From contig NC_045142.1 in the NCBI RefSeq assembly GCF_008831285.2, positions 17,301,354-17,365,353 of the forward strand: 64,000 nucleotides of DNA, given 5' to 3'. Within the stretch, counting starts at the first letter, position 1. Every line of letters begins with the position of its first letter. Below, piece after piece: positions 6,167-39,980 of this stretch. Origin of the DNA: Nymphaea colorata (lineage: Eukaryota > Streptophyta > Magnoliopsida > Nymphaeales > Nymphaeaceae). Both the position numbers and the translations under genes were made by a program. The notes under the pieces were generated by a model. It was not told the DNA's origin. It was given only the letters and a program-made list of their open reading frames with translations, and did not search any database.

Positions 6167-6899
6167 TCAGACCTTCTCCCACACCGCATAGTCCTTGCCG
6201 GACGTGACCATGCGGAAGCCCGGCGGAATGAGGCCGCCGGCATCAACCCTGGACCCAATCTTCGCGATGACCTTTCCATCGATCTTAGCCACATAGAGAT
6301 CTTTATCTGCAACCAATATCTCAACAGCGCTTCCAGGCTTAATCCCATTCTTGGCCCTAATCCCACTCAACATCTTAATCTCCCTGGCCAGCCCCCAATC
6401 AAAATAGTGATCATAAAACTGCACAAATTAAATATTTAGTGCATAAGTGATCATTATAGTCTCACAATGCAATATGTAAAAATAATCATTCAAAAGTAGT
6501 CCTTCTCTTTTAGGATATTCCCAAAACAAGATTTTTTTTTGAACATTTTTGTTGTTCAGTGTCTCCTCTCTAGATCCATCCAATTCCAGCTTAGATTGGT
6601 AAGAACAATAACTAATATTTCTGCTGGTACAGGAGCCAGAATTTTTGGTTGAAGGCATGTACGAGCATGTAACAATCAAACTTTTAATTTTTAAGTCTTT
6701 CTCAAAATCTTAAACCCTCTAGGTACATAGTAAAGTGATCGAAGAGCATCAATATCAATATGTAAATAACCAAAAAGCTAACAGATATTAATATGTAAAT
6801 AAGAAAATTGTAATGGGTCAGCATGAACAACTGTTTACACACACCCAGATTGGTCAAGGATTGTACTCACAAGGATGTTGAAACCAATAACTTTTCTCC

Positions 6900-6986
<87 letters not shown>

Positions 6987-8693
6987 CCATGGGGGAGGGG
7001 CCAAGGGGAGCTGGCAAGGGCCCTGTTATCCCTCAAAAAAATTTTTTTTTTAGAAAATTACATTTAAATTAAAAAAAATTATACAAAAGTTTTGAAAAAT
7101 GATATTTGGTACTTTAGAAACTTTAATGTAGCCTCTCATAAAAATTTTCTAGCTCCATTCCATCATCACTAATATAAAACAAAGAATACACCAGTTATGG
7201 CAAAAACTTACAATTGAGGGGATGCCGGGATGTGTGAGGATGTAAGCATAGCCTTGCATGACTTTGTCTGAAGGAAAAGGCCAATACTTTTGAGTTGACC
7301 CCGTGTCATGGTTGTCTATAAAAGTCACAGCTTTCTCCGGCGAGATCCCTATGAGTCCTGAAGGCCTTCCCTGTGGATCCTTCAACCTCCATAGCTCATT
7401 GTTGACTGCAGACTGCAGCACTCCCTTGGTGGTGAAATCAAACGCCGCCGCAGCTCTGCCGGTGCCACTCACCCAGTTGTCCAGCTCCCTCCTATGGTTA
7501 ATCGGACCTTGAACTGGGTCTGAGCCCATTGTGGTCCACACCTCGCCTACGACAAACTCGGGCTGGGCTCGCTGGATGTAGCCCTTGGTTATGTCGGTCG
7601 AGTAGCCCTTGGCGAAGTCGAGGCGCCAGCCATCAAACCCGATGTCGGACTTAAGCCAGTTGAGCCAGTCAGTGAGCTCCTTCTGGACCCTCTGGTTCAG
7701 GTGGTCGATGTCCGGCGCGGCGGCATAGCCTTCGCCAGTGTCGTAGTTGCCGGTGCCATCGGAGTACTGGGTGTCATCCTTGCAAATGGACCAGGGTCCC
7801 CAGTCCAGGCTCCCATCCCCCTTTCCACCTTCGAATTGGCACCATATGCCCCGGCCATCCTTCTTGGCCGCCGTCCGGTGGTTGATCACGACGTCAGCGA
7901 GGCACTTGATGTTCGCCGTGTGAAATGCCTTTATCAGGTCCCTGAGGTCAGCCCCCGTCCCGTACCTCGATGAATCCAAGTCGTAGTATTTGCCGGGAAG
8001 GTAACCTGAATTCACGCCCAAAGTAGATGGTGCAATTAGAGGTCTCCGGCAATGGAACCGGCCGTTCATTAAAAAAAAAAAACTTTTTTTCTTGCAGAAT
8101 CATGGTTTATCCATCTGAAGCTGCATGAAAAAGATTAAACAATATAAGAACTCTCAACCGAGTCTGACCTTCCGGAGAAGCCGACTGTGAGGCTGGAGGA
8201 AGCCAAACATGGGTGACTCCCGCCTCTGCTATCTGAGGCACCAAATTCTTGAGAACATGATACCACCCTTGACTGTTCTTAGATGATTCCCAGTTGAAAG
8301 CCTGAAATCAATTCGCATACACCGATATTATAATTAAACATGAATAAAACATTAATTTCAATTGATACTATATATAAAAAATTGAATGGTAGCTATGAAT
8401 CACTTGATCATCTAACTAGGGCCATTGAATTTATTCGGGTGAACAATTAAAAGAAAAAAAAATGATAGTCATTTTTAACATCTAATCTAATATTATTTCA
8501 TACATTTTTCTCATTGATTATGAACAACGAGAATCATCATAATACATATAAAAACTTGGTGAATGCATTCTAATGCATGTAATGTATATAAGCTAATTTA
8601 ACGTACCTGAAAAAGAAGCTGGGCATGAGAAAACTGGAACGTGGAAAGGTAGAGGACGAGTGAGAGGAAACAGGTCAGGTGTTGAAAAGCCAT
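6167..8693 (-). CDS. AMY: Secreted alpha-amylase (GH13), complete, four exons
   Basis: Endo-acting alpha-1,4-glucan hydrolase of starch, in the plant secreted family. Minus-strand exons are 8693-8607, 8301-8169, 8005-7212 and 6418-6167; all introns are GT-AG, the joins are in phase and the product is 421 aa, the usual family length. Residues 1-24 form a signal peptide ending FQFSHA. The TIM-barrel motifs are DVVINH (111-116), GFDGWRLDF with nucleophile D203, GEVW with acid/base E228, and FIDNHD with D307. The C-terminal beta domain ends KDYAVWEKV. The paired Trp that family members carry in a G-W-W-P segment before the D307 motif is replaced by I-S (GISPEKAV, 293-300). Intron 3 (7211-6419) carries an 80-bp TA tract and a dispersed repeat. 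A truncated paralogue and an inverted 5'-end copy lie downstream in the window. Confidence 0.96.
6903..6982. repeat. (TA)n microsatellite in amylase intron 3
   Basis: About 80 bp of uninterrupted alternating TA within the last intron of the amylase gene. Confidence 0.97.
6988..7165. repeat. Dispersed repeat D in amylase intron 3
   Basis: A GGGGAGGGGCCAAGGGGAGC head, an AT-rich body with AAAATTTT-type runs, and a tail near TTTTCTAGCTC. Related copies in either orientation are at about 24895-24990, 25529-25590, 26655-26850, 27765-27920, 30650-30830, 33840-33970 and 58690-58880. The typical end reads GGGGCGGAGC. It is a common type of degenerate plant repeat; its class is not clear from these fragments. 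Confidence 0.55.
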
Positions 8694-8744
8694 TGAAGGA
8701 GGAGACGGAGAGATGTGTATGGAGTTGGCTCCCCACATCGAGCC

Positions 8745-8751
8745 TTTTATA
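8745..8751 (-). promoter_or_regulatory. TATA box of the alpha-amylase
   Basis: Reads TATAAAA on the minus strand, about 52 bp upstream of the ATG at 8693, implying a short leader. The box is conserved at the matching place in the pseudogene copy near 23563-23572. Confidence 0.8.
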
Positions 8752-8781
8752 AGTAGCAGAAAGTGAGACTAATAAATGCTT

Positions 8782-8849: not shown

Positions 8850-11800
8850 GCCTTATTAATAAGCTCAGAACCGACGTTACGTTAGGTCGGCCTATCGGAC
8901 CCTTATCCAGTATTCGTAGATATCGGTCTCGGGTCGGCTGCAAACCAGAAGCCATGCCCACCTATACAAGATTATTAAGTTTTTTTCGTTTTATTAAATA
9001 TTTGAAATATTTTGTTTATATTTTTACATGACAATAAAAAACCGACTCATGGGTGACCCACATGGTACCAGTCGATTGGCTTAAGTCAATTGAATACGTT
9101 GTGTTATCAGGCAAAAATGTAAAAAAAAAAAAAAAAAAAATTATTCAAGTATAAAAATGTAATTATCTCAATTAAAAAGTTGACAGGCGCACTCCGTTTG
9201 ATTTCAAAGGGCCCGTTCCAATATTTGCTAAGTAAGGCTGCACAAGGGGTCCAGTTAAGTCGGGCTTAACTTGAATTCGCTAACAAAAACTCATTTAAGT
9301 TATAATGGGTCAAGCTTGAGTTCAAATTTATGCTCCAAATATTAAACAACTAAAGTTCGAGTTGTTAGAACTCAGATTCGTTTAAAGTCGAGTGGGCTCG
9401 ATAAAATAAATTTTTCTTAAATGATAAAACTTTGTGTTGCTAAGTATCTCTTTAACAGATATTTGAGTACATAATATGTAGCATTTTTTGTTTGGATTTT
9501 TTGTTAGACGGTTAATCATAGTTGAATTAGTTAATGGAATGAAATGACTTAAATGAATTGACAAGTTAAACTTGTTAAAAAAGTAAAAAAAATGAACTTA
9601 AATTAAGAAAAAACAAATTAAGCCCAACGTTATATGATCGAGTCACCTCCGCACCTGAGGTGGGTAAGGCTCCAACATACAACCCTAGAATAAGCATAGT
9701 TTGCTGAGTCGCCAAGTTGGCCCGGGAATACTAAGAGTCAACTCTCATTACTAAAAAAACTGGCCAGGAGTCAAAAGTTGGTCTGACTCGTCCTGACTCA
9801 GCTATACTGACTCGCCCACTCTACCGAAACAATGAATCAACTCGCTAGCTAAATGACTCCATCATCCACCGATCAAAGTCGAAATCACGAGTTTACCAGC
9901 TAAGAATGAGAATAAGCCTGTCCTGACACCGGAAACTGAGACCGACAACACTGGCCTTATCTCTTATTATTATTATTATTATTTTTTTGTTGTTTTGATC
10001 TTCCGTCGCGTGCCGCCAAATATTTCTGTGTTCGGCCAATTACACTGTGTGGGACCCACGGTTAAAAGTTATCGGTAGGCCTTGGGCGGGCCAACAACTA
10101 ACCGGTAACGTACCCTTTTTGGCGTCACCTAAAACGGCTAAGAGCCTCTTCATACTCAACTTTATCTAACGAAAGTCGGTGTTATCATCGAACAAATTAG
10201 TTTCTAAATATTTTTATAAATTTTTTGTTTTTTTATTATCTGCATTTTTAGTTCTTCTTCAATTTTTTTTGGCTCGATGGCTATGAATTTGATTTTAAAA
10301 TTAAAATTTAAAAAATAAAAATTCTACTTTAATTTTTTAAAAACAAAATTTTAACTTAAAATTGGAATTAGAATGGAAATTTTAGTTTGAGTTTTTCTTT
10401 GTCTTGGATAGTTTGAAAATTTTGATTTTAAAATTGAAAGTGATGTGTTTGATAAAAAATTTAAATTGTAGCATTGATGAATTGAAACTCATTATGACAT
10501 TTAAGTAAAAGAGAGATGAAAAAAATTATGGCAGAATCACAAATTTTGATTGAAGATTGAGCCTATAATTTCAGAATCTTTTTTTTTTTTTTTTATAACT
10601 GATGCTCTAATACCCAAAAAACAAATATACATATACTTAAAAAAATTTATTTTATATAAAAATTTAAAAAAAAATATTTCAGCTCCTAACACTTTATCTC
10701 TACTGCGGTGGCCTCCAAAAGAATTCAATGGCTTGCCTATAAAGACGGCCACCAGCGTGCATCACGTCGTTATTCGTTAGTTGTAATTTATAGCGGCGGA
10801 TCTCTTTTTTCTGTTTTTCAAACTTTAGAATTATAAATAGTGAGGCAATCAGCGAAGTCTTTTTTGCCCTATGCAACTTGTACGCAAAAAGCGTAACTAC
10901 TCGTCACAAACTTAACGGTATGGTTGCATATTCTTCCTGGAGAATTTACGAGCAGACACCCACAAGTTCAGCATATGACAAAATAACATTCACTTTTGAA
11001 AATTTTTGTGTGACTGTCCGAGCCTAAGTATAAAGTACTGAAAACCTGCTCTTTGTGATAACACTTGAAACAAATTGCTGCTTTAACCTGGCCATTTACT
11101 GTTTACCAATGACCGAAATCACCAGTATACGGTGATTTATTTCGTGTAAAGGTATTATATGACAAGTTGTTTCTTGGGTATAATACGGTAAATTTATATA
11201 TCTCGAGAAAATCTTGGAAAACTTTTTATTAAATTAAAAAATATATAAAAATTAGGTAAAAGTAAAATAAATAAAAAAACTAATAATAAGACTCTGAAAA
11301 ATGCTAGATAAAATTATAAACATAATATGACGTGGGTGTAAAGTAGTACATTAAAAGCAAATAATAGCCATATGTAAAATTTAAAAAATAATAAATTTGG
11401 TTGGTCTCCATGCTAGACTTAATTTACTCAGCCCGGCAGGATATGAAGGCCGAGTTAATGAAGGAGTTATTGCTATGGAGGGGTTTCATAGGAGCAGTTG
11501 TGTTCTGTCTGGCTCTCTTCTTTATTGCATCTAATTTTCTGTAATTCATCGGTCTCTTCTCTTCATTACATATATAATATTCATTACTACATGCACCTTT
11601 AAGCACTCTCTCTTCTTTATTATGCTTAATTCTGGTTAATGTTTGGTTGAACACAAAAAAAAAATCTAACATCCAGTAAAAATGCAAAAAAAAAAACACA
11701 AAAAAACGTGTATTTTTTGCATTTTTTATTTTCTGATGTCTTTTTGAAAAAGACGCGTCTTATTGATGTTTTATATGACTGACTTATAGTTCACTTCCAT

Positions 11801-22724: not shown

Positions 22725-23610
22725 ACAACTTGCAAATTGGAGGTCTCCGGTAATGGAACCAGCCGTTCAAAACTATACCGGTGCAATTTTGTGACATTTT
22801 GACGGCAGAAAAATCACTTTTCGTGACTCAAGTTTTTATGCAATTTTTCAAATTTTTGCTGGTTTATTTGTGATCTATAAGGTCGAGGACTCAACCATCG
22901 GTTCTCGTTTTTCGTAAAACCCTTTTTTATGTTTAGGCAGGATTAATTTTACAAGAAACAAAGATTCAATTGTCCAAATGTCTGGAATTTTAATAACTTT
23001 GTGTTTAGTTCATTTAAACGGAAAACTTTTTTTTTTTTTTTTTTTGCAGAATCATGGTTTATCTATCAGAAACTGCATGCAAAAAGATTAAACAATATAA
23101 GAACTCTCAACCGAGTCTGACCTTCAGGAGAAGCAGACTGTGAGGGTGGAGGAAGCCAAACATGGGTGACTCCCGCCTCTGTTATCTGAGGCACCAAATT
23201 CTTCAGAACATGATACCATCATTGACTGTTCTTAGATGATTCCCAGTTGAAAGCCTGGAATCAATTCACATACACCGGTATCATAATTAAACTTGAATAG
23301 AACATTAATTTCAATTAATACTATGTATAAAAAAAAATTGAAACTATCTAACTAAGGCCATTGAATTTATCGAAGTGAACAATTAAAAGAAAAACAAAAA
23401 GAAAAATATGATGAACATTTTTATCATCTAATCTAATATTACTTTTCACATTTTTTTCCTTGATCCTGAACAACAAGAATCATCATTAATAGTATATATA
23501 CCAAGAAGCCAATAAAGGAGGAGACAGAGAGATGTGTATGGAGTTGGCTTCCCACGTCGAGCCTTTTATAAGTAGCAGAAAGTGAAATTAATTGATGCTT
23601 ATGGATATGA
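22725..23610 (-). pseudogene. Alpha-amylase pseudogene (intron 2, exon 2, intron 1 and promoter only)
   Basis: This segment follows the amylase gene from intron 2 to the promoter. The exon 2 equivalent (23254-23122) is still 133 bp with both splice sites, but the glycine codon corresponding to residue 41 has become TGA within SQGWYHV. Exon 1 is mostly deleted, and the remaining start region reads ATTG instead of ATG. Exons 3 and 4 are absent. About 230 bp of foreign sequence (near 22775-23010) interrupts intron 2. The TATA box and TATCCAT element survive at about 23563-23605. The residue preceding SQS is Pro, as is usual for the family, whereas the intact gene has Ala there. Confidence 0.93.
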
Positions 23611-23618
23611 ACTTCGAA

Positions 23619-24155
23619 GTTCGGTTTAGCGTTATTCTCTTGATTCAAAAGCATACATTTATCCAAAACGGAAAAACATCCACCTTTGAAAAATTAATAC
23701 AAAACTTTGTAGTAAATGGAACGGTTGCGGAATTATTCTACAGTGGACGTGTTGCTTTTAAACTTCGTAGTTCTTTTTCTCACTACTCTCTTGTTAAAAA
23801 GGCTATCTGCAAATTAATTGAGTTGAAGTGTAACGAACAAGTTAACTAGTACAGAGGTGGGGCTTTTTAAAAGATCACGACGACCCATGTCCAAACTCCA
23901 TCCACCAATATTTACTAGTTAACTTGTTCGATACACTTCAACTCAATTAATTTGCAAATAGCCTCTTCAACGAAAGAGTGAGAAAAAGAACTTCGAAGTT
24001 TAAAAGCAGCACGTCCACTGTAGATAAATTCCGAACCCTTCTATTTATACAAAGTTTTGTATCAACTTTTTTAAAGTTGGATGTTTTTCAGTTTTGAATA
24101 AATGTGTATGCTTTTGAATCAAAAGGCTTTTAAAGAGAATAAAGCTAAACCGAAC
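23619..24155. mobile_element. Foldback element with long inverted repeats
   Basis: The arms at 23619-23851 and 23913-24155 are close reverse complements, starting GTTCGGTTTAGC and ending GCTAAACCGAAC, with about 61 bp between them. It sits against the promoter end of the amylase pseudogene. An 18-base word of the arm (ACAGTGGACGTGTTGCTT) also occurs alone at about 22309-22326. A clear target duplication was not found. It is too short to encode a transposase. Confidence 0.8.
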
Positions 24156-24464
24156 TATCTAATATGCATATTAAAAAAAGTTTGCTTTTAAACTTATATT
24201 GATTTGAGACTTAGATAATAAAAATGATTTTAAAAATTAAATTATAAAAGTCAAATGTAGGTGGTCAAACTGAAAACATTTCAAAATACTTAAGCACTAT
24301 GGGGATACTGATAAAAATACAATTCAGGAAAGAAAAAAAACATGCCACTGTTTTTGAGTGACAAGCCAAAACGGTTTGGATGAGGAATCCAGATTCATGA
24401 CAAACCAATTTCTAGAAACTGAAGTTTATGATGGTTCTTGCAAAACATAACGCACCCTTACATA
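24156..24464. other. Intergenic, nothing recognised
   Basis: AT-rich sequence between the foldback element and repeat R. I see no gene, repeat boundary or motif. Confidence 0.4.
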
Positions 24465-27420: not shown

Positions 27421-28215
27421 CTTAAGCTTAAGGGTTCATTCAAGCTCGTATTAATAAACCAGGCAACCTTGATCAAGCTTTTAAAGAAGGCATACGGTAT
27501 AAGATACTTTAAAATATTTTGCATGGCACTTGCTTTTCTTGGGCAATCGATTGTTTTTGTTATATTTTTTTCTCAAAGGAGTGAACGTGTGTTTGAAGTT
27601 TCCATTTACATGTTTGTTGTGTCTATATCATGGGGACTTTAACTGAAATAGAATTGACTATCTGTGAACATACTGTAAACCTATACCGGTGAACTTAAAC
27701 GTCGTTGTTCTTAACTATACTGGGAAAGATAAAGATAATTAATGGCAGGTGTACATCCATGAACAAGGCAGGGGCAAATGTGGGTAGAACTACAAAATTC
27801 ATATTTCCTGTTGATATTTCAGAGATTTTTCTTTCATTTACATATTGATTGTTTCTTAAAAACTTGAAATTTTATAACTACTGCCTCTTGGTCAAAATTT
27901 TCTAGCTCCACTCCTGTCCATCAAGGGTCGTATTTCATGTTTTCTTCTACTGTTATATTATATATATTATTATTACCAGCGGTAATTTGTATAGCAAGTG
28001 AAGTGGTAGGTTAAATTGACCATGCTGGGATCAAGTCCGATGCTAAGCTTTTCCCTTTTACTAATCAAACGTGATAAAGGAATTTGATCTATAGCGCACC
28101 CACCATCCACCGGACAATTCCTTTCTTTTTCAAGTATGCTCTCCAGTCCCAATCATAAGTGTAGGTCATCAAATAAAATGAATTACATTATATATAGGAG
28201 GATTTTCTAAAAGCA
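27331..28215. repeat. Duplicated segment Y, copy in block B
   Basis: Follows 21500-22200 in the same order and orientation, with an inserted repeat D fragment at about 27765-27920 and the 45-bp duplication at its start. Confidence 0.8.
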
Positions 28216-28348
28216 GCAAGTACTATATATATATATACTGCATTATCCCGCAGCAATTGATTTGCCTGTGCACAAACGTCCATGTATTATGTTACTCGAG
28301 TAATTTGCACAATCAATTCAATTGGTGGATGACATAAAACAATAAATA

Positions 28349-29581
28349 GGGGTGAACACGAGCCGAGTTGAGCCAGCTTAGCGAGCCGAGTTGAGCCAGC
28401 TTAGCTCGAACTCGGCTCGACTTCTATTTTGCATGGCTCGAACTCGGCTCGACTTCTATTTTGCATGGCTCCAGCTCGGCTCGGCTCGGCTCAAACTTGA
28501 ATCGAGTTGTATAATGTTGACTCCAGCTCGGCTCGATGAAGCATGTCAGAGCTCGTTCAACTTGTTTAGGCATGCTGTAGTGCGGTAACAGAAGCAGTGT
28601 GCTTAGTGCTTATTGTTGAAGTGCTGCTATCAAGGAAGATCGCAGTGGTGGGGGAAGGGCAATTGATCTACAAAGGAAGATGAATCCCTTCATTTGAATT
28701 TCAAATGAAACCCCAAATGAAAAAACTGAAATTTTATCTGAGAAATTTGAATTTCATTTGAAACCCTCTCTCAACTAACGAAGGTTTTGAAACCCGTGAG
28801 AGAAAGGGTTTCATGTAAAAAAGTATTTTCAATGAATCATTCAAATTTTGAAACCTTCGCACCCGAGTAAGGGTTTTCCTAAACCTTTCAATGATTCATT
28901 TATTCTCATCTATTAAAACCTTTTCTCAACCAAGGAAGGTTTTGAAACCCTCGCACCTTTGAATGATTCAAAATCTTCTCTCTTTCATTCATATGCTGAA
29001 ACCCTCACTCTCCAATAAGCGAGGGTTTCAGAACCTGAAACCTCGCTATCACTAACTGTAGAAAGAGGGCTTTGAACCCTCGCTCCAGCAATAACGAAGG
29101 TCCTCGCTCCCTCGAGCAAGGGAATGAGCGAGGGTTCCTCTGCTTCAGTGAGCTATGGATGAAACCCTCTCTCGGGTTTCAGGACTCTTGCTAAGCGACT
29201 GAGCGAGTTCTTTTCATAGAGAGAGAGAGAGAGAGAGGGGTACCTTAGCTCTGCAACAACGGGAGAAAGTAGCAAAGGTCGATGCCTCCCATTTGGACGA
29301 TGATGAAGACGAAGTGAAGAGAGAGAACATTCGGGATGAAATGAGAAGTAAAGCGGAAGAAACAAAATAAATACATTGAAGTTACTATTCATTTTTTATT
29401 GAACCGAGTCGAGCCGAGCTTAAAAATTCAAGTTCGGTGGACTCGAACACTGCTTGACTAATTGAATGAGCTGAAAAATCAGCTCGAGCTCGGCTCGATT
29501 ATGAAAGTAGCCAGCTCGAAGTCGATCACGAGCTGAGCTTTAACGAGCCAAGCTCAAGTTGCTCGGCTCGTTGTTCACCCC
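28349..29581. mobile_element. DNA element with GGGGTGAACA termini and TA flanks, 1.23 kb
   Basis: The left end reads GGGGTGAACACGAGCCGAG and the right end, read inward, GGGGTGAACAACGAGCCGAG. Both are flanked by TA (28347-28348 and 29582-29583), consistent with TA-target elements such as Tc1/Mariner-Stowaway, although TA flanks alone are weak evidence. Sub-terminal parts are dense in GGCTCGA words. The interior (28700-29190) is a string of short inverted repeats built on GAAACCCTC and GAGGGTTTC. No transposase is visible. Confidence 0.65.
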
Positions 29582-29583
29582 TA

Positions 29584-31129
29584 CAAAGTTGTTTTTAATT
29601 CAATCAGAGATAATTATGTATGCCATGACCGAAAATGGTAAATGGTTTTCATGACTTCTTGTTGAAAGTAATGCTTTAGGCCGACTTTTTTTTAGTTTTT
29701 TTTTTGCACTTACTATCAATTAATTAAATAGAAACACTTTATGAGCTACTTGAGAAGATCAGCCAGAATTTTAATTAATGTAAGTGAAATAAAAATATTC
29801 TATGAGCAATTCAAGAAGAGCAAAAAAAAAAAAGTGGAATCTAATTTGGGTGAAAGTCAATTTTTACCGACGTCCAAACTGAGGTACTAGTGCAGTAGTA
29901 TATAGATGGATAAGGTGGAGATGTCTTCAGAACATGTTCAGTAATGTTTCTTTATTAAATCTAGACAACCTCTACCATAGAATGTGGAGACTACAGAATT
30001 TAAGTATAGTTTGTTGCTGGCCAACAAGCTGTGATGTACATTGTGATCCTCTATGGCAGAAGATTTTGTATTGAAACGAGAAAATATCCTTACTATCGGA
30101 ACTTGTATAAATATGTGGGGACTATTATGACAGCTGTAGCAAAATAATGTTAGAAAAAGTTTAGTGACATGTCATTGACATTGAATTAACAATGTAAAGT
30201 TCCAAGGGTGGAGTGAAAATTTTGACTAAGAGGCACTAGTTATAAACTTTTTATTTTCTATGGGGCAGTACCAATATGTAAATGTATAAAATTTCTATGA
30301 AATATCAATATGAAGATAGGAACTTTTGTGGGACTGTGCGGGCAATTGCCCACACTGTGCCCACACATGCCTACGCCCCTGTAAGGTTCAGTAACATGCT
30401 TGGTAATGTTAATAGTTGAGTGTAATCATATAGTTTTAGATAAATATCCAAAAATATTTAATGTTCATACATTTAGAGACTTGGTTCTTCATATGTTTGA
30501 AATGCATTTTGGATTCATTTTAGAAGTTGGATTGGGACTCAGATGTGAAATCCAAAATCTGAGTCAGATTGTGAATTCAGATTCACATTTATTCGGTCAT
30601 ATTTGAATTTGAATACGTAAGCATCTAAAAAAGGTAGATATATATAGTCGAAGCAAAAGTGGGGAACATGGCCTCCCCTGCTATTTTTAAAATTTCAAAA
30701 TTTTGTATTTAAAATCTAAAAGTTTTAGTTTAACTAATACAAAGAATTTGCAAAATTACATTTCGATTCTTTCTTAAAATTTCAAAACTATAGTTGGGCC
30801 CATGCAACAAAAAATTCCTATTTCTGCGTCTATCTAAAGTTGATTCATTTGATTTGAGTATGATCCATCTACATTCCTATCCACATTATTTAATAGAGAA
30901 GGTTAAGCCATCTAGATACCTGGCCTCACGTTGGGGGGCATATCAGCCACCATGCTGTGTTGGCAACACGTTGATAATATGTAATTATACATAGTAAGGA
31001 GTATTATAAAAAAGGAAACAAATTAACCTCAAATTATGACATGAGATACATTGTCTCTAATTATTTATAATTTTATGTGCATGGAAATGCTTGATGCATG
31101 AATTCCTCACTCATTGTAAATTATTACAT
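29584..31129. other. Intergenic, repeat D fragments, no gene seen
   Basis: A fragment at about 30210-30385 ends GGGCAATTGCCCACACTGTG ... TACGCCCC, and another at 30650-30830 resembles repeat D. No open frame with recognisable content. Confidence 0.45.
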
Positions 31130-31445
31130 ATCTTAAAAGTATCTTGTGATCGTGTTTTTCTATGTACAATATTATTCAAAAAATGAACTGTCACATCCAC
31201 AATATCCTAAAATATCATCAAATGGCATTTTTAATGGATACAATTATCATCCAAAATCTCATATTTTCCAAAAAATAACACAGCAATAGAGGCAATATTT
31301 TCTCTTTGGCGTAATATAATTTGATTGAAAATACATCCTAAAAAAGAAAGACATCTTCCCCCCAAGGTGCAATGAAAGAGATAGCAAGGATATATAGAGG
31401 CTCGAGTAATAGCTTTGACCATTCCAGGGAAGAGGGAGAGAGAGA
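31130..31445 (+). repeat. Dispersed repeat R, copy 4 (block C)
   Basis: Same order as copies 2 and 3: CACATCCACAATATCC, AAAATCTCATATTTTCC, GAAAGACATCTTCCCCC, GATATATAGAGG and TTTGACCATTCC. It opens block C. Confidence 0.75.
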
Positions 31446-31596
31446 GATACATCATACTGTTTTATGTATTTTCTCTTTTTCTTCTTTTATACGGATGCAT
31501 CTTTTCTTATTCTTTCATGCCTCTGATCTTCAAAAATCAACTCTCCATCTTTCACCTTCTTTTTTTTTTCTTTAGGTTGTCTTTGATCTGATGTTG

Positions 31597-31810
31597 TATT
31601 AAAAGATGTGTTTTAAGAGATATTCAGTTTAAACAAACTAAGGATCTCGATATCATGAATTTCAAATCCATGCTACATGTTAAAAACCATGAATCTAAGA
31701 TCAGATTTTGAGTTGGGGGGGGTGTCCGATCTTAAATCCATGGATTTGAGATATTAGAGTTTTCAAATCACCATGGATCTCAGATCTACGGTGAACCAAA
31801 CACAACATTA
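31597..31810. repeat. Repeat Z, copy 1
   Basis: Shares TTAAAAGATGTGTTTT, ATGCTACATGTTAAAAACCATGAAT and GGTGAA.CAAACACAAC with 50398-50548 in the same order and orientation. Probably a small non-autonomous element. Confidence 0.65.
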
Positions 31811-32264
31811 CACTTTCAATTCTGCACTTATTGTCTCAAGAATGCACTCTCCCATGCTTTGGTCTTGTTTTTTTTTCTTCATTGGTTTCTGTTTTGCACT
31901 TGTTGTCTTAAGAATGCAGTTGTATTGCTATGCAGTTGTATTGCTAGTGCACTTTCTCTTCTTTGCAAGTTCCATTCCTTGAGCCTATGTCTTCCCCTCT
32001 ATGTGGGCAGGCTTAGATTTAGAGCATGGTGATGCCTTGGCAAAACAATATAGTAAAATTAAAGCAGCCCAAGAGGTCCAATCTTGTGTACTATCATATT
32101 GTTTTTTTTTTTTTTTTTCTTTTGTTATCCATTGATGAAGATGGAGATAGATGTGTAGTCTTTACATACAATTGTCCTCAAAGCAGGGGCTGAAGTAGGT
32201 GTGGGCTATGTGTGGTCATTTGCCCACATGGATACATATGCCATTTCCAAAAGCATCTCCAGTG

Positions 32265-33802
32265 CCCTTCAACTCATTCACACTCCAAAAGTTGACCGAT
32301 GCGCCCTAAAAATAAAATTTCAAAGGGCTTCCAACCCAAGTTGAATGAAACTTTTAACTCCGCACGTGTTCCACATGAATCCGCTCCTCACCAAAAGAAG
32401 TGACGCTTTTTCCCACTTTAATGTAACTTTAATTTTAAAGGACTTTGCTGATCATAATAAAAAAAATACTGTCATAATGTAATTAAAGAAATGAACAGTA
32501 AATTTTTGTAGATAGACAGTTTTTCCTGGGGTTCAAAATCAACAACAAACTTTTCTTGGCTTATAAAATTCTATCTTTGTTTACAAAAAAAGGCAAATCC
32601 CAACTCCATCAATATTGATTAAATAAGTGCGATGGCTACATATGTTGACTTTGATGAGGTTGATCACGTTGTGTCCAATTTCCCTTATTTCTATAAGCAA
32701 AAAATTGTGTCGCCCAAAAGATGGCCTTCCATGAGTAAAGAGGATTACCTTTATGGGGTACTCATGTCTTGTCCTGTAGGCAACACAGTTCCCATGTAAT
32801 CTCTAAGCACCCTTTGAGCAAGTTATTAAACATGGGCAGAACTAAGAAAACCAAACTTACCACTTATAATCATTTTGAAAATAATAAAACTTTTCGAATT
32901 ACTCTTCTGATGGAACAGCTTAACCAATTGTCTCCTGTTCCATGACGTACTTTTTGTGCCTTTGAGTTTAGAGAGAGAGAAGTCAGACATTTGATCTTGT
33001 AATTTCCATATTTAACCTAAGTTTTAAGATCTTAGCTTTTGAAATTCATGGATTTCATGTAGAGCCTTGTTTGCCTTAAACTAAAACTTCTTAAATTTTT
33101 ATACTAAGTTTTCCCTAATTGTGCATGGTTTTTAGAAACCAACTATAATTCTAGCAAAAGAAATATTCAAATCACAATGTTTCAGTACTTGAAATTCATG
33201 AATTTCAAAAGCTAAGATCTTAAAACTTTGATTAAACATGGAAAACTACAAGATCAAAGGTCTGATTGATATCTCTCTAAAGATAAAGGCACGAAAAGCT
33301 GGTCATGGAACTCAAGGAGACAATTGGTTAAGCTGTTCCATCAAAATAGTAATTCCAAAAGTTTTATGGGGACCATAAAAAAGTTTTATTTCCAAAATTA
33401 TTATAAGTGGTAAGTTTGGCTTTCCTGGTTCTAACCATGTTTAATAATTTACTAAAAGGGTGCTTGGAGATTACATGGGGACTGTGTTGCCTACCAGGAC
33501 AAGACATGGGTACCCCATAAGGGTATTCCTCTTCACTCATGGAAGGCCATCTTTTATAATCAGCAAAGTGCTTTAAAATTAAAGTGACATTAAAATGGGA
33601 AAGAAACGCAACTTTTTTTGCTGAGTAGTGGATTCACCTGTTGTGCACAGGAAACACCTAAAAATAATGGGTGTGGGGGACATGGAGTTGCCCCCACAAC
33701 AAGGGTTAGGTGCAGAGTTAAAGTTTCATTCAACTTGGGTCAGAGGCCCTTTGAAATTTTATGGGGCATCGGAAGACTTTGGAGTGTGAACGAGTTGAGG
33801 GG
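32265..33802. repeat. Long imperfect palindrome, about 1.5 kb
   Basis: The left arm (32265-33062) and right arm (about 33185-33802) are reverse complements over long stretches: CTTCAACTCATTCACACTCCA, CAAGTTGAATGAAAC, GGTACTCATGTCTTGTCCTG, CACCCTTT and AATTGTCTCC of the left arm all recur inverted in the right. The centre is about 33065-33185. About 200 bp near 32455-32690 in the left arm lacks a partner. No shared open frame is obvious. Confidence 0.85.
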
Positions 33803-33839
33803 CGAAGGGGATGTTTTGCAAAATTTATTAGTCATAACA

Positions 33840-34060
33840 TATAATTTTCTTAATTTTATATTGATATTTCTGATTTTTTTTTTCATTCACATGTTGGTGC
33901 CCCTTAAACTTTAAAATTTTGTACATAATGCCTGTTAGCCAAAATTTTAGATTTTTTTCTCCTGCCTCAAAGATACTAAGCTGACTCTTATGAGCAGATT
34001 CAAACTTCGCTTGTTTTTCTTTCTAAAAGGAACATTTGATTAGTAGTATTCTCTGCAAAG
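33840..34060. repeat. Repeat D fragment and segment W (block C)
   Basis: 33840-33970 resembles repeat D. 33979-34057 is segment W, matching 17878-17960 (CTGACTCTTATGAGCAG to TAGTATTCTCTG). Confidence 0.6.
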
Positions 34061-34099
34061 TTTTTGTCTTTATAAAGTGCCTAAACATGTATGAGCAGG

Positions 34100-34910
34100 T
34101 TTTTGTCTTTTTGAAGGAACACATGTAGGGTAGGTTTTTTTTTGTCTGTCTCCTCTCATTGTTCCCTTTCGTCTTCCTTTGCTTTGAGCCTTTGGAATCG
34201 GTTGGCAAAGGAAGAAGATATTTCTGGAATTTAAAAGGAGGATGGATGAGGGAGAAGAATATGGCCAAGAAATCTGCAGGAAGGAGATCCGAAGTCTCTT
34301 GGAGGAGGCGAAGAAGGCAGCCAATCTAGCCATGGCAGGCGGCTATGAGGCCACTATCAGGGCACCCTTTCACTGCTTTGTGACTTCCCCGTTGCTATGA
34401 CCATCCTCATCTCTCTCTTTCTTTCTTTTCGCCAAGTGATCGACAGCGCAACCAATTGGTTTGCAATCTGCTGTAAGGATGGCATTGAGGAGCGTTGAGC
34501 ATGGGTTGAACGTTCATATGGCTAGCAACTAGATCGGCGGCCTCCTTCGGTGGCCGAGAGAGAGAGAGAAACAGGTGAGATGATGATGGACAAGGTGACA
34601 GGGAGGTCACATAGCAGTCGAAGAGCATCCAGTTGGTGACCTGGTTGTCCTCAAATGGAGAAGCCGCCCGTCGGGGCTAGATTGGCTGCCTTCTTCGCCT
34701 CCTTTAAGAGACTCAGGAGCTCCTTCTTGGCAAATTTATCAGCCATTGCCCTCTCCCTTCCTCCAACCTCCCTTCCAAATTACATGCATGTCTTCTTCCT
34801 CTGTGCCAGCCAATTCCAAAGGCTCAGAGCAACAAGAAGAAGGAAGAGAACAATGAGAGGAGATAGACAGAAACCTACCCTACATGTGTCTTCCTTTTCA
34901 AGCTTTTTCC
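34100..34910. repeat. Imperfect palindrome, about 0.8 kb, GC-richer than its surroundings
   Basis: The outer arms (34100-34350 and 34655-34910) share ACATGTAGGGTAGGTTT, CTCCTCTCATTGTTC, CTTTGGAATTGG-type and GAGGAGGCGAAGAAGGCAGC words in opposite orientation. The inner parts (34360-34435 and 34545-34630) are also complementary, so the whole locus folds about a centre near 34490. Read outward from GAGGAGGCGAAG, both arms give EEAKKAANLA, suggesting that an exon was duplicated in inverted orientation. I cannot name the gene. Confidence 0.82.
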
Positions 34911-35549
34911 AATTTGAAGACGGTCATTTGTGAGCAAATATTGACAAACGCATCTTTGTTATGTTCATACCATGGTGCACAAACTTAATGGACAAAATGC
35001 CCCAGGTTGATTGAAAAAGAGAAGTTTTTACAAGAAAAAAAATAGCAAAAAGTTAAAAGACTAATAAAAACATTTATTTTTATATAATTTTCCAAAACAT
35101 CCCAACTCCTACCCTTTTTTTGTGTACATTTCTTGCACACTCTCTTTCTACCATCTCCTAGGTGAGGGAAAAGAGAAAGCTTTAATGACCAAAATAGCCT
35201 TATAAGCTCCCTAGGTTTTATAATTACCAACATAGGTGGAAATGCCCCTCATGGTCATGGGGCATGATGCTCAAATGTGGAAAGATCCCTTTCCATAGCT
35301 ACTGACTTCCAATGCAAATTTTGCCCATCCGTGCTGTTTGCTTATTTGAATATTTGAACATTTGCGGTTCAACAAACTTAAATTTTAGCACCAGAAACAA
35401 TGGAGAAACAGTCACGCAAATATAAATTCAGTGCAATGAACCATCACACTAACACTAAGTTGGTGCTCGAAAGGAAAACTAGCCACCTACCAACCCCCCA
35501 CCCCATCCATTGTGCCAACTCCCTTGAAGACAAACATTACACGTTCAAT

Positions 35550-35845
35550 GTCCATCTCTATAAGCATTAATTAGCTCCACTTTCTACTACTTACAAAAAG
35601 GCTCAATGTGGGAAGACTCCACACATCTCAGTCTTCGTCCTCTTCCCATGGTTCCCCAACTTGCCTTAACAGTTCCCTCCTCATTGTCCTCTTCCAAAAA
35701 CAGAACGTGGGAAGAAAGAGGATAAGGAAGAAGAAAATGGTCAGGTGAGTTGGGAAGCTATAGAAGGATGAAGAAACCTGACATGTGTGTGGAGTTGCCT
35801 CCCCATGATATTGAAACTTTTTATAAGAACCATAAAGTCGTGGTT
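35550..35845. repeat. Inverted duplication of alpha-amylase promoter and exon 1 start
   Basis: The left arm (35550-35665), read on plus, follows the amylase gene from TATCCAT region through a degenerate TATA (TTACAAAAAGGC), the leader (CTCAATGTGGGAAGACTCCACACATCTC) in pieces, to an ATG at 35648. The right arm (35690-35845), read on minus, follows the same gene from TTATAAAAAG through CTCCACACACATGTC to an ATA at the start codon position and a CACCTGACCATTTTC match to exon 1. Each arm is a separate decayed copy of the same amylase region, facing each other. Neither can encode a signal peptide any more. Confidence 0.82.
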
Positions 35846-35860
35846 ATGCCTATTAAAGGT

Positions 35861-38200
35861 TATTTAGATCGCTAAGCGTTTTTTGTTTCATTAAATAATT
35901 AAAACATTTTTTATTGCTTTCAAAATGAAAATAAAAACAATTCGTTCAGACCAGGTTGAAGCCAAGTACAATTGATCTTTAAAAAAAAAGGAAAATAAAA
36001 CATCTGTTTATTATTTAGATTCCATGTTTTGTTCACTCAAGTACCTTTTTCGATGTTGGGGGTTTCTTGACTTCCACATTTGATTTTATTTAATTGAAAA
36101 TCCAAATATAAATCTTATCTTTTTATGTGTGCACTTATATAGATAGGTATTCTGCATTGTTATCGTCAAGGTGCTGGTGAAGCAGCCTCAAGGGGTGTAG
36201 GGTAGCTGGTCAGGCACATCCCGGCACATCCCCTATTCAATTTCCATGTTTGTTACATCCTTGGCCCGTAAAAGGTGGGAGCATGGCACTCTAGGCACCA
36301 CCACCATTTCATGTTCCTCGTTTTCCGTTTTTAGTTTTTACAATATGGGTGGACATAAGCCCCCACTAAAACAATTTACCTTTTCTAATGTGTGCTTTAG
36401 ATATCAGAAACTAGTTGGACATAAGCCCCAGATTAGGTTTTTATTTATTTTAAGTCCATTGCCAGTTGATATCAATCCAATTTAGATTTGACCATATAAA
36501 ATTTTTAAAGTTGGAGTGAAATTGGTCATATAAAGTTGGAGTGAAATTTAATAAAGATTTGATCTGATCACTTTTAATTTTGGAATCGTACCATATTTGG
36601 ATAGATTTGAATTTGGTTTAGAAAGGAAAAATCTAAACTCAAGTTTGAATCCTACTTCCTGGATACTGAACTCAACCTGAAATCAAACCGTATTTCTAGA
36701 CTCAACAATGGACTTTCAATACCAAAAACACCCACGCTTATGAGCTTGATTTATGTCTCGGTCAGCTTACCCTTGCACCACTAACAATGACATTTTCGTC
36801 TCTAAGCACGAAATTAAACCTAATCGGAGTTATGTCCAGATAATTTCTGATATCTAAATAACATGTCAGAAAAGGTGAATTGTTTTAATGGCGGATTATG
36901 TCCACAGAGATTCCAAAGATGAAAAGGAGGAATAAGAAATAGTGGAAGCCAGGTATCCTTCTTCTGCAGTCGCTCTCCGCCATATATAGGAAAAGAAGAT
37001 GATGGAAGGACCGGCTAGAGAGGGATAGAAGGGAGCTAACAGCAAAGTTTTCCCACTTCTCTTGCACCTCAACGATGATGATGGCGGCATCTTATGCAAC
37101 TTGCGTCAAATAACGCTTATTTGTAAGGAACGAAAAAATGTTCCTGCTATACTTCAACTTGCATATGAGTGCCTCTTTTTTGAAGTACACTTCAGAAACT
37201 TCAAAATATAACTAGCTGCCTACTAGCCATTGCACTATCATGTACCAACCCCTTGATGGACAATTGACATGTTTCATTGGATTAAAGTTAAACTGAACAT
37301 ACCACTATTTTATACTAAGATTATGCACATTTACTGAGTAGACATTATTGGCTGTGCCAAGTTTGACTTTTTTTTTTGTCTTCTCTTCTTCTTCTCCTTA
37401 TGACAAGACAGCCCTGGAGTTAGTCCATTATATTTCTCTTCAGAAAAGAATGACAATGTTTGGCGTTAATATGCTTTCATAACGGTAATATTTAATGCAT
37501 ATTTAGGAAATTCTGATCAAAACATGGGCTTCTGATGAAAATTCATGATACTTATCCCTATAAACATATAATATTATGCACACAATAAAAAAAGTTAAAG
37601 ATTTATACACAGCCTGCCTCTAATTAACAATGCATTTCTTTTTTCACTATTATTTTTGTGGGATCGGGCTGCAAAATCTGTGGAAATTTCCTAGACAGAG
37701 ACGCCATCCTTCCTCATATTAAGACGACTTGTGTTTTATGGAGCAAAGGTGGTTACGTACATCATACTGGTGTATGATTTTTTTTGGTGTATGATTTTTT
37801 TTGTGCGCTAGTGTGGCTAACGATGAAAATACCCTGATTATTAGAGAAAGTAAATTTTTTTGTGAGGATACCAAAAAAAAATTAAAAAAATGAAAAGATT
37901 AAAAATGACATATTTTTTTTCAATAATTACCAAAATGTCTTCTTTTTGCCTTGAGGCATATATAGGTTGTGTGCATGCAACTTACTCTCGTTATGGAGAG
38001 ACATTAAGGACACCCTTCAAATTGTGTCTCATTAAGTGAAGGCTCTTTTCATGTCTCCCTCCAACATGTGTTCATCGTATGAGCAGGAGGAATATTTTAT
38101 CCTACCAATTTAGAAAAAATGCCTTCTACCAACACCAAACTTTGACATTCTTTTTTTGGAACACATCAAACTATTCTTGTCATTGTCAAGCATTTAGATG
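35861..38200. other. Intergenic, no gene seen
   Basis: AT-rich sequence without recognisable coding regions. Degenerate repeats are likely. Two overlapping frames near 36885-37099 (minus) are short and show no motif. Confidence 0.4.
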
Positions 38201-38214
38201 CTCTAATGGAGCAC

Positions 38215-39400
38215 ATCAAACTATTCTGGTTCCTTTGCTTGTCGATAGAAAATTTAGGTCTACCAAACCACATACTATTTGTCCTCCAACCTGCTGTGCT
38301 CCACCAAAATATCATGATTCTAGAATATCATCTCCTTGATGGTTCTTTGTCACAGACCTAATCTTCCAACGTTGTAGCAGATCCGACCTTCATTAGTGGT
38401 CCAGCTAAGTCACCGCAGTACGGCATATAGACCCGCCGGTACGGTGTGGTACGTTTGGATTTATAAGTTATAAAGAAGCTTCTTTAGTCCTGTCTGAAAC
38501 AGGAAACTAATATATAACAATGTTTCCACTTTTCATGTATTGTAAGTCATTGTGAAGGTTCGTTTTTATGATATGGTGTTTTTTTTTTTCAAAATTTATA
38601 ATTTTTTTAATTAAAAAATTAACTTTATTGCATAAAATTTACACCGTACTCGTACCATAAATTTCAAAAACACCGTACCAGTACTCGTTTTCCCGTACCC
38701 GTACCAGCACCCGGACCCGTACCCAGGTGACATAGTGGTCCAGGAGGAAGATGATGCCAACTTAAATTCCGCCACCATTTATGAAAAATGAAGTGACCAA
38801 TAACCCCCTTGTAATATAATTGCCATGCTCATATAGAGAAATAGCTTGAGAACTATCGTATCAAATTAAGAAATCTATACAAAATCACCTTAACATTAGT
38901 TTTAGTCTATCAATATATTGCGCCTTGCTTTCTTGATCTTTTGTGTTGAACTGAATAAATCATATATGTAATATAATAAGTTTAAGTATGAAAGTTGATC
39001 ATTTATTTACTGTTTAGTGGGTCCCCTTGCATGCTTACTTATTAAATTGTTCTCAAGCTATTAGTACACACGGACATGCCATCTATATTATACAAGGGGG
39101 TTCTAGTCACTACATGTTCCATAAATGGTGGTGGTGGAATTTGCATCGTCATCTTCCTCCTCTTCAACCATTATTGAAGGTTAGATTTGTGACAAGGTTG
39201 TAAGATTAGGTCTCTGATAAAGAACCATCAAGAAGATGATAATCTAAAATCAGGATATATGGGGGGAGGAATTAAGGCACGATGAACGACAATTGATATG
39301 ATGTGGTTCGATAGATACAAATTCTCAATCAAGAAGCAAAAGGAACAAAAATAAATTCTTAATCAAGATGACTTACAAACTATTCTTTTTTTTTTTTTTT
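38215..39400. repeat. Long imperfect palindrome interrupted by a small element
   Basis: The right arm (39040-39400) read on minus gives TTCCTTTTGCTT, CGAACCACAT, TCTTGATGGTTCTTT, GACCTAATCTT and AACCCCCTTGTA. The left arm has TTCCTTTGCTTG, CAAACCACATAC, CCTTGATGGTTCTTTG, GACCTAATCTTCC and AACCCCCTTGTA. The left arm is split by the element at 38405-38734. The centre is about 38880-39040. Confidence 0.85.
38405..38734. mobile_element. Mutator-like MITE with 9-bp target duplication
   Basis: About 330 bp with inverted ends TAAGTCACC..AGTACGG and TATGTCACC..GGTACGG, flanked by the 9-bp repeat GTGGTCCAG (38396-38404 and 38735-38743). Nine bases is the Mutator-superfamily size. The mirror arm of the surrounding palindrome (about 39160-39180) has a single copy of the related target and no insert, which serves as an empty site. 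Confidence 0.8.
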
Positions 39401-39599
39401 GAAGGGGTCGTTTGGCACCTGTAATAAGTTACTGTCCAATGGTTATCTTCTAAAATTTGACGTAAATTCATGAAAACCTACGTTATAAGGTTGCATGAAT
39501 CTATTCCAAGAAGTAGTTTTATTGAACAATAACAGAGTAGATTCATTGAACAATAACAATAACCAAGTTTTAGAGTAGTAACACTTTGTTACTAATGCC

Positions 39600-39980
39600 A
39601 ACACTAAAACAAAGTAACTCGTCGGCGGCTAGGCCAGGAAACTATCGACGGCGAATACCGTTGGGGGAGAACGCCCACAGCCATGACCAAGATCAAGAGT
39701 CGACGGAGGCAAAGCGTTGGCAGAGAAGGATTAAGTATAACTTGTTCTTTTTCTTGTCCCACGACCTTCCATTTGGCCTTTTTGTGCCCAACTGTAGTCT
39801 CCCTCACACTCTCTGTCTCCCTCTCTCCATCCACGGCATCCTGCAATGCATTAAATGCAGTTAGCCATGTGTTATCGCCATCAAATGCGTATATCGTGAC
39901 ACAACATTCTCCTTCGCAGATGAAGCACTCGAGGCTCTTGGTGGTACACATGAAGCGTCAATCGCCCTTTTCATTTTTAA
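39600..39980. other. GC-richer block with overlapping frames, unassigned
   Basis: Frames of 92 to 115 codons overlap on both strands (for example 39604-39951 minus). None shows a recognisable motif. It may be a decayed exon or part of an element. Confidence 0.25.

Follow-up and report, generated by a model that had tools for sequence, protein, structure and literature searches.

Two decayed 5' ends of a secreted alpha-amylase gene stand in inverted orientation in the window, by which we mean the whole stretch of 64,000 nucleotides analysed here (G000:C5:17301354-17365353), and they raise the question of whether such a locus provides a hairpin RNA acting on the amylase gene or is what is left of a failed gene copy. 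The first-pass annotation of this DNA had proposed a proto-hairpin-RNA locus, with one arm antisense to the leader and signal-peptide region of the amylase. Judged from its sequence, the locus is probably a relic, i.e., a decaying pseudogene hairpin with most likely nothing specific in function, and the earlier interpretation is partly supported: the inverted-duplication origin is right, and the youth and function ascribed to the locus are not supported.

Anatomy and origin of the inverted amylase 5' ends

The founder-type gene at 6167-8693 (minus strand) is, according to its splice model, an intact secreted alpha-amylase of four exons and 421 aa, whose best solved match is barley alpha-amylase 2 (E 1.4e-170) and whose TATA box starts at 8751. 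At 35544-35838, two copies of its 5' end, comprising core promoter, leader and the start of exon 1, face each other. The left arm (35544-35695, sense on the plus strand) matches amylase 8793-8710 (minus strand) along 35550-35629 with 81% identity over 85 columns (E 1e-14), and the right arm (35696-35838, sense on the minus strand) matches amylase 8637-8764 along 35703-35838 with 72% over 136 columns (E 8e-12). Aligned with each other, the arms form a single palindrome (65% over 273 columns, E 3e-8) and are about 69% alike at aligned sites. This arm-amylase homology is far above chance, since local alignment of the arms to the gene scores 101 and 81, and of 1978 and 1985 pieces drawn at random from the surrounding 264 kb none exceeds 32 and 31, respectively, and the two decayed, inverted promoter, leader and start copies described by the first-pass annotation are thereby confirmed, their homology and orientation also supporting the inverted duplication of a gene 5' end that it had named as their origin.

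Genome searches that skip very common words, covering 407.8 Mb in 783 contigs, placed the hairpin at two sites only, namely in the window and at C13:2967169-2967559, where the copy is 82% identical to the window locus across the palindrome. Alignments and translations of both copies agree with the earlier claim that coding ability is lost in both arms: the right arms have ATA where the amylase has ATG, and the left arms have kept ATG, followed by a 2-nt insertion. The TATA box is mutated in the window left arm (TACAAAAA, 35592-35599), from which TATAAAA is missing; it is retained in the window right arm (TATAAAA, 35825-35818) and TATAAAA is present in both C13 arms as aligned.

The C13 copy is the more complete one and informs on how the arms were joined. 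Here, they meet as TTCTCTTTT-CC-AAAAACAGAA, almost without spacer (TTTT-CC-AAAA), and both stop near amylase 8630, at about one and the same position. Relative to this copy, the window locus is without 19 bp at the inner end of its left arm, so that the gap of about 25 bp between the window arms, which had been taken for the distance at which the two copies face each other, reflects this loss and not an original spacer.

Promoter homology extends further outwards on the right arm. An outer extension at 35866-35937 (minus strand) matches amylase 8969-9040 with a score of 34, and of 42 in the C13 copy, against a shuffle maximum of 20 (reached by 0 of 200 shuffles), and in the left flank a match to the amylase promoter was not significant (23/200 and 54/200 shuffles reach the score). 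Independently, the C13 right arm matches an amylase fragment on the same contig in a manner agreeing with this outward homology; the fragment (C13:2997736-2997946), lying about 30 kb from the C13 hairpin, consists of promoter and exon 1, is 93% identical to the gene and also has upstream promoter homology. A search with the main catalytic exon had no C13 match among the 26 matches listed. Since the right arm carries promoter from further out, it would represent the truncated donor, which shares the orientation of the amylase gene; about 170 bp of this donor would be present as an inverted copy in the left arm.

The following course of events could account for this arrangement. First, a tandem duplicate of the secreted alpha-amylase gene present here would have been cut short in exon 1, and a segment of about 170 bp, spanning core promoter, leader and exon 1 sequence, would have been copied back inverted, directly next to it. 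The simplest route may be fold-back synthesis where a DNA end was broken or stalled, as this would leave the arms with hardly any spacer and with one end point in common; it is proposed on the basis of the symmetry of the locus, of that shared end and of the promoter reaching further out on the right arm. Both arms would then have lost their coding ability, the surrounding block would have been duplicated to another chromosome and the hairpin would have kept decaying. A different but equally functionless origin, in which two amylase copies stood tail to tail and either their interior was later deleted or the palindrome tip was trimmed, could draw on the tandem amylase copies and fragments present in the window region and on C8, C9 and C10, and trimming of the tip would likewise end both arms at one coordinate. 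We consider this origin unlikely, since significant promoter beyond the core is found on the right arm only and two independent breakpoints within a few nucleotides would hardly be expected.

Other amylase genes were also considered as donor and rejected: with the 5' ends of nine paralogs from C8, C9 and C10, 0/9 match the arms (E up to 1e-3). Compared with the 5' region of the window gene, the match of seven of the nine sets in shortly ahead of the start codon and continues into exon 1, with nothing further upstream, and two do not match at all. One tandem amylase array (G000:C9:11845282-11874311) contains three catalytic-exon copies with equal scores and one decayed copy, each of the three having one TGA in the stretch as read. 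Within the window, a further remnant of a tandem copy is found at 22735-23618 (minus strand), with core promoter, leader, exon 2 (string at 23254-23122) and intron pieces of 86-91% identity. Exactly where its amylase homology stops, a spacer-free palindrome begins (23618-24156; 81% over 563 columns, CpG o/e 1.05), perhaps a fold-back element inserted into the promoter of the remnant.

The duplicated block and the age of the hairpin

The hairpin is part of a duplicated block, 28138-39974 in the window and inverted at C13 2972302-2963306, which is made up of collinear gapped hits of 77-90% identity. A maximum-likelihood tree was calculated from 162 columns of a short gapped alignment, so that its branch lengths are rough. 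In this tree, the left arms of both loci pair with each other (support 97), as do the right arms (99), and left and right arms together form one clade (94), to which the three amylase sequences included do not belong. The stem of this clade measures 0.166 substitutions per site; the two arm branches are 0.17 and 0.21 long, compared with 0.03-0.09 for the tips that postdate the C5/C13 duplication. At nine sites both arms agree against the gene and the C13 fragment, with 11 further changes private to the left and 8 to the right arm. The inverted duplication thus clearly occurred well before the duplication of the block between C5 and C13, and the locus is not young; the word “proto”, by which a young locus had been meant, does not suit arms that split well before they were copied to C13.

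Several further rearrangements were observed in this region. Parts of the 26-41 kb region are present a second time, rearranged and including inverted pieces, at about 6-22 kb ahead of the window start (-22435 to -6145 in window coordinates), and in this local copy a match to the hairpin was not found. Adjoining the window left arm, about 296 bp (35204-35500) are missing from the C13 copy, owing to either an insertion in the window or a deletion on C13. Another inverted pair at 34114-34896, with arms of about 330 bp, 74% identity and a 136-nt spacer, is situated about 650 bp from the amylase hairpin. Moreover, the island 34740-34939 differs at 2/199 sites between C5 and C13, while the rest of the block differs by about 11%; recent gene conversion is one possibility for this near-identity. 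A genome search with 34700-35000 listed seven places with 74-100% identity.

Folding and tests for constraint

As the first-pass annotation had anticipated, a transcript of the locus would fold: compared with 100 shuffles each, the window strands reach z values of -5.2 and -6.9 and the C13 copy about -13. Folding better than shuffled sequence is, however, a property of any palindrome. Using published duplex criteria (20-24 nt, at most 5 mismatches, no asymmetric bulge above 3; PMC12594335, Table 1), a simplified count gave 9 and 37 positions of miRNA-like 21-nt duplexes on the window strands and 83 and 87 on the C13 strands, i.e., all four hairpin strands have the duplex structure asked of a MIRNA. 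In Rfam, only hits far below gathering scores were obtained, spread over many unrelated families and miRNA precursors.

Palindromes are common in this part of the genome. In the 264 kb around the window, 60 inverted-repeat rows were recorded, partly nested, and spacer-free examples are frequent. Among nine other local palindromes picked from this list, seven have an energy per nucleotide below that of either window hairpin strand and five below that of the C13 plus strand. The amylase hairpin shares the lack of a spacer with these fold-backs; its own arms are gene-derived, and it occurs at only two genomic places (very common words skipped). A MITE-like fold-back transposon that captured an amylase 5' end would fit the abundance of spacer-free palindromes nearby, but would be expected to leave dispersed copies, whereas the two places found belong to one duplicated block and the arms are amylase sequence throughout; we therefore regard such an element as extremely improbable.

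Against the relic that we favour counts the C13 hairpin, which still folds very well, as do the close 21-nt matches of both copies to the amylase core promoter and a borderline cluster of amylase-like columns in the left arms, both described below. Sequence divergence is in line with decay. The C5 and C13 hairpins differ from each other at 34/332 sites, compared with 810/7321 in the rest of the block (Fisher p 0.72; p 0.59 without the conserved island 34740-34939), and 39% of 367 equal-sized windows diverge as little as the hairpin or less, which puts it at the level of neighbouring non-coding DNA, as a relic should be. This whole-block comparison is fairer than an earlier flank comparison, which took in the left flank with the island.

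Selection on pairing is not supported: pairs are not kept beyond chance on the plus strand and barely more on the minus strand. Only 2 of 35 changed arm sites are altered on both arms, and pairing survives 6 changes on the plus strand (10.3 expected) and 11 on the minus strand (9.9 expected). The amylase sequences set the direction of change for 23/37 differences, and after polarisation 4/16 changes are still paired on the plus strand (5.5 expected) and 12/17, slightly more than the 9.4 expected, on the minus strand. The number of finally paired sites exceeded that in a simulation (P 0.000-0.004), which would naively favour constraint; the simulation was invalid in its start, taking a living copy, which necessarily loses pairs, as ancestor, and the statistic was set aside. 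Five cluster tests for a protected 21-column block in the arms revealed no clear one (P 0.057-0.84), the lowest and borderline value belonging to the amylase-like columns of the left arms at 8754-8734. Altogether, the hairpin would seem to be decaying with no clear sign of constraint, and weak selection is possible given that two copies only could be compared.

Matches to the amylase gene and relation to known hairpin loci

Plant transcription starts 25-35 nt downstream of the TATA box. With the TATA box of the amylase gene at 8751, this spacing predicts a start at about 8726-8716. The closest complement of the locus to the gene (35783-35805, plus strand; 2 differences in 23 nt against 8735-8713) straddles this predicted start, which is derived solely from the TATA box, and lies mostly on its upstream side (9 to 19 of the 23 nt). 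For the other strands and the C13 copy, too, the top matches listed fall within 8711-8773, in the vicinity of TATA box and start site, and each hairpin copy has 21-nt stretches whose penalty against the amylase core promoter is 2-3. Among matches lying entirely within the predicted leader and exon 1, the window locus has a single 21-mer (penalty 4.0) and the C13 locus two at a penalty of at most 4, the better of which scores 3.0 and lies in exon 1 (8656-8636). Targeting of leader or signal-peptide mRNA is disfavoured by these weak matches inside the predicted transcript. About 5% of 188 random 320-bp pieces also obtain a penalty of at most 3 in the gene, and at least one obtains 0, so that the penalty score alone is weak evidence. 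If the hairpin is active at all, its address would likelier be the core promoter than the mRNA.

Further features of the promoter were compared. AMYBOX2 (TATCCAT), described for sugar-regulated amylase genes (PMC12586236), is present in the promoter of the amylase gene, and its core TATCCA is missing from both window arms and from the C13 arms as aligned. CpG dinucleotides number 2 in the window hairpin (o/e 0.16) and 6 in the C13 copy (0.45), at a local median of 0.49; values as low or lower occur in 8.8% of local windows for the former and in 44% for the latter. The CpGs of the amylase are mostly CA or TG in the left arms, and the amylase promoter with exon 1 is not CpG-poor (o/e 0.90). CpG depletion as a footprint of methylation was rejected, being low in the window hairpin but ordinary in the C13 copy.

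Silencing of a gene by an inverted repeat elsewhere in the genome has a precedent in the PAI1-PAI4 repeat of Arabidopsis Ws, which silences unlinked PAI genes by DNA methylation (PMC3203196). Like the amylase hairpin, the PAI locus consists of a duplicated gene arranged tail to tail, and both resemble unlinked or separate members of their families, 5' regions included. The PAI repeat is young and long and is transcribed from a foreign promoter, with small RNAs and methylation shown (PMC3203196), whereas the amylase hairpin has short arms, about 69% alike. A comparable trans-acting silencer, whose siRNAs would be made from a transcript across the hairpin, be homologous to the core promoter of the amylase (about 8712-8773) and bring about its DNA methylation, could explain why the best complements of all four strands fall around TATA box and start site, why the TATA box is kept in the window right arm and both C13 arms as aligned, and why the window hairpin has few CpGs, with amylase CpGs turned mostly into CA or TG in the left arms. 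However, the matching stretch is not more constrained than the rest (1/23 sites changed between the copies, too few to judge), the CpG content of the C13 hairpin is ordinary, the amylase promoter and exon 1 retain their CpGs and some 5% of the random pieces also reach a penalty of at most 3. We hold such a silencer to be improbable, and the more specific proposal that siRNAs from both inverted loci, the one on C5 and that on C13, act on the core promoter of the C5 amylase gene and not on its mRNA, silencing or tuning the gene, to be quite improbable.

The reading closest to the first-pass annotation is that the locus is a MIRNA or a source of hairpin siRNAs and that these small RNAs cleave the amylase mRNA within its leader or signal-peptide region. 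Its model is MIR1444 of Salicaceae (poplar and relatives), held to derive from inverted duplication of a polyphenol oxidase gene, with loci about 70% similar to their target genes and multiplied by genome duplication (PMC5223194). The amylase hairpin resembles these loci in being a tail-to-tail inverted duplication of part of a gene, in the similarity of about 70% between arms and gene, and in its later multiplication together with the surrounding chromosome (PMC5223194). In this light, and with a 23-nt stretch having only 2 differences, the earlier concern that divergence might be too high for targeting is not borne out. MIR1444 is distinguished by higher similarity in the miRNA region, cloned miRNAs and cleavage sites in the coding region (PMC5223194); in the amylase hairpin, a protected block was not found and the gene is matched most closely at its core promoter. 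The shared origin, the foldability with miRNA-like duplexes on all four strands, the homology of both arms to one gene in inverted orientation and the two C13 21-mers speak for a MIRNA-like locus. Against it stand the single window 21-mer inside predicted leader and exon 1, a putative miRNA region not better conserved than the rest of the arms in any of the five cluster tests, the age of the arms, their lack of constraint and the Rfam hits far below gathering scores, and we consider mRNA cleavage of this kind very unlikely.

For rice and Arabidopsis, inverted duplications related to pseudogenes have also been considered as a source of miRNAs (PMC3237417). These cases share inverted pseudogene fragments and hairpin potential with the amylase hairpin; they are, however, annotated miRNA genes (PMC3237417), which the amylase hairpin is not. 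Among the open-access papers listed, we found no amylase-derived hairpin and no hairpin work in the suspected source genus.

For the decaying hairpin that we favour, transcription, if it took place, would at most feed general repeat-type siRNA production. Where fold-backs are as common as in this region, foldability and arm homology are insufficient to single out a functional locus. Should the promoter reading nevertheless be true, the locus would be a natural counterpart of promoter-hairpin transgenes. As a relic, with the founder-type gene, the truncated donor, the inverted copy and the duplicated sister locus all identifiable, it may serve as a datable example of the raw material for gene-derived plant hairpin RNAs, seemingly decayed rather than recruited.
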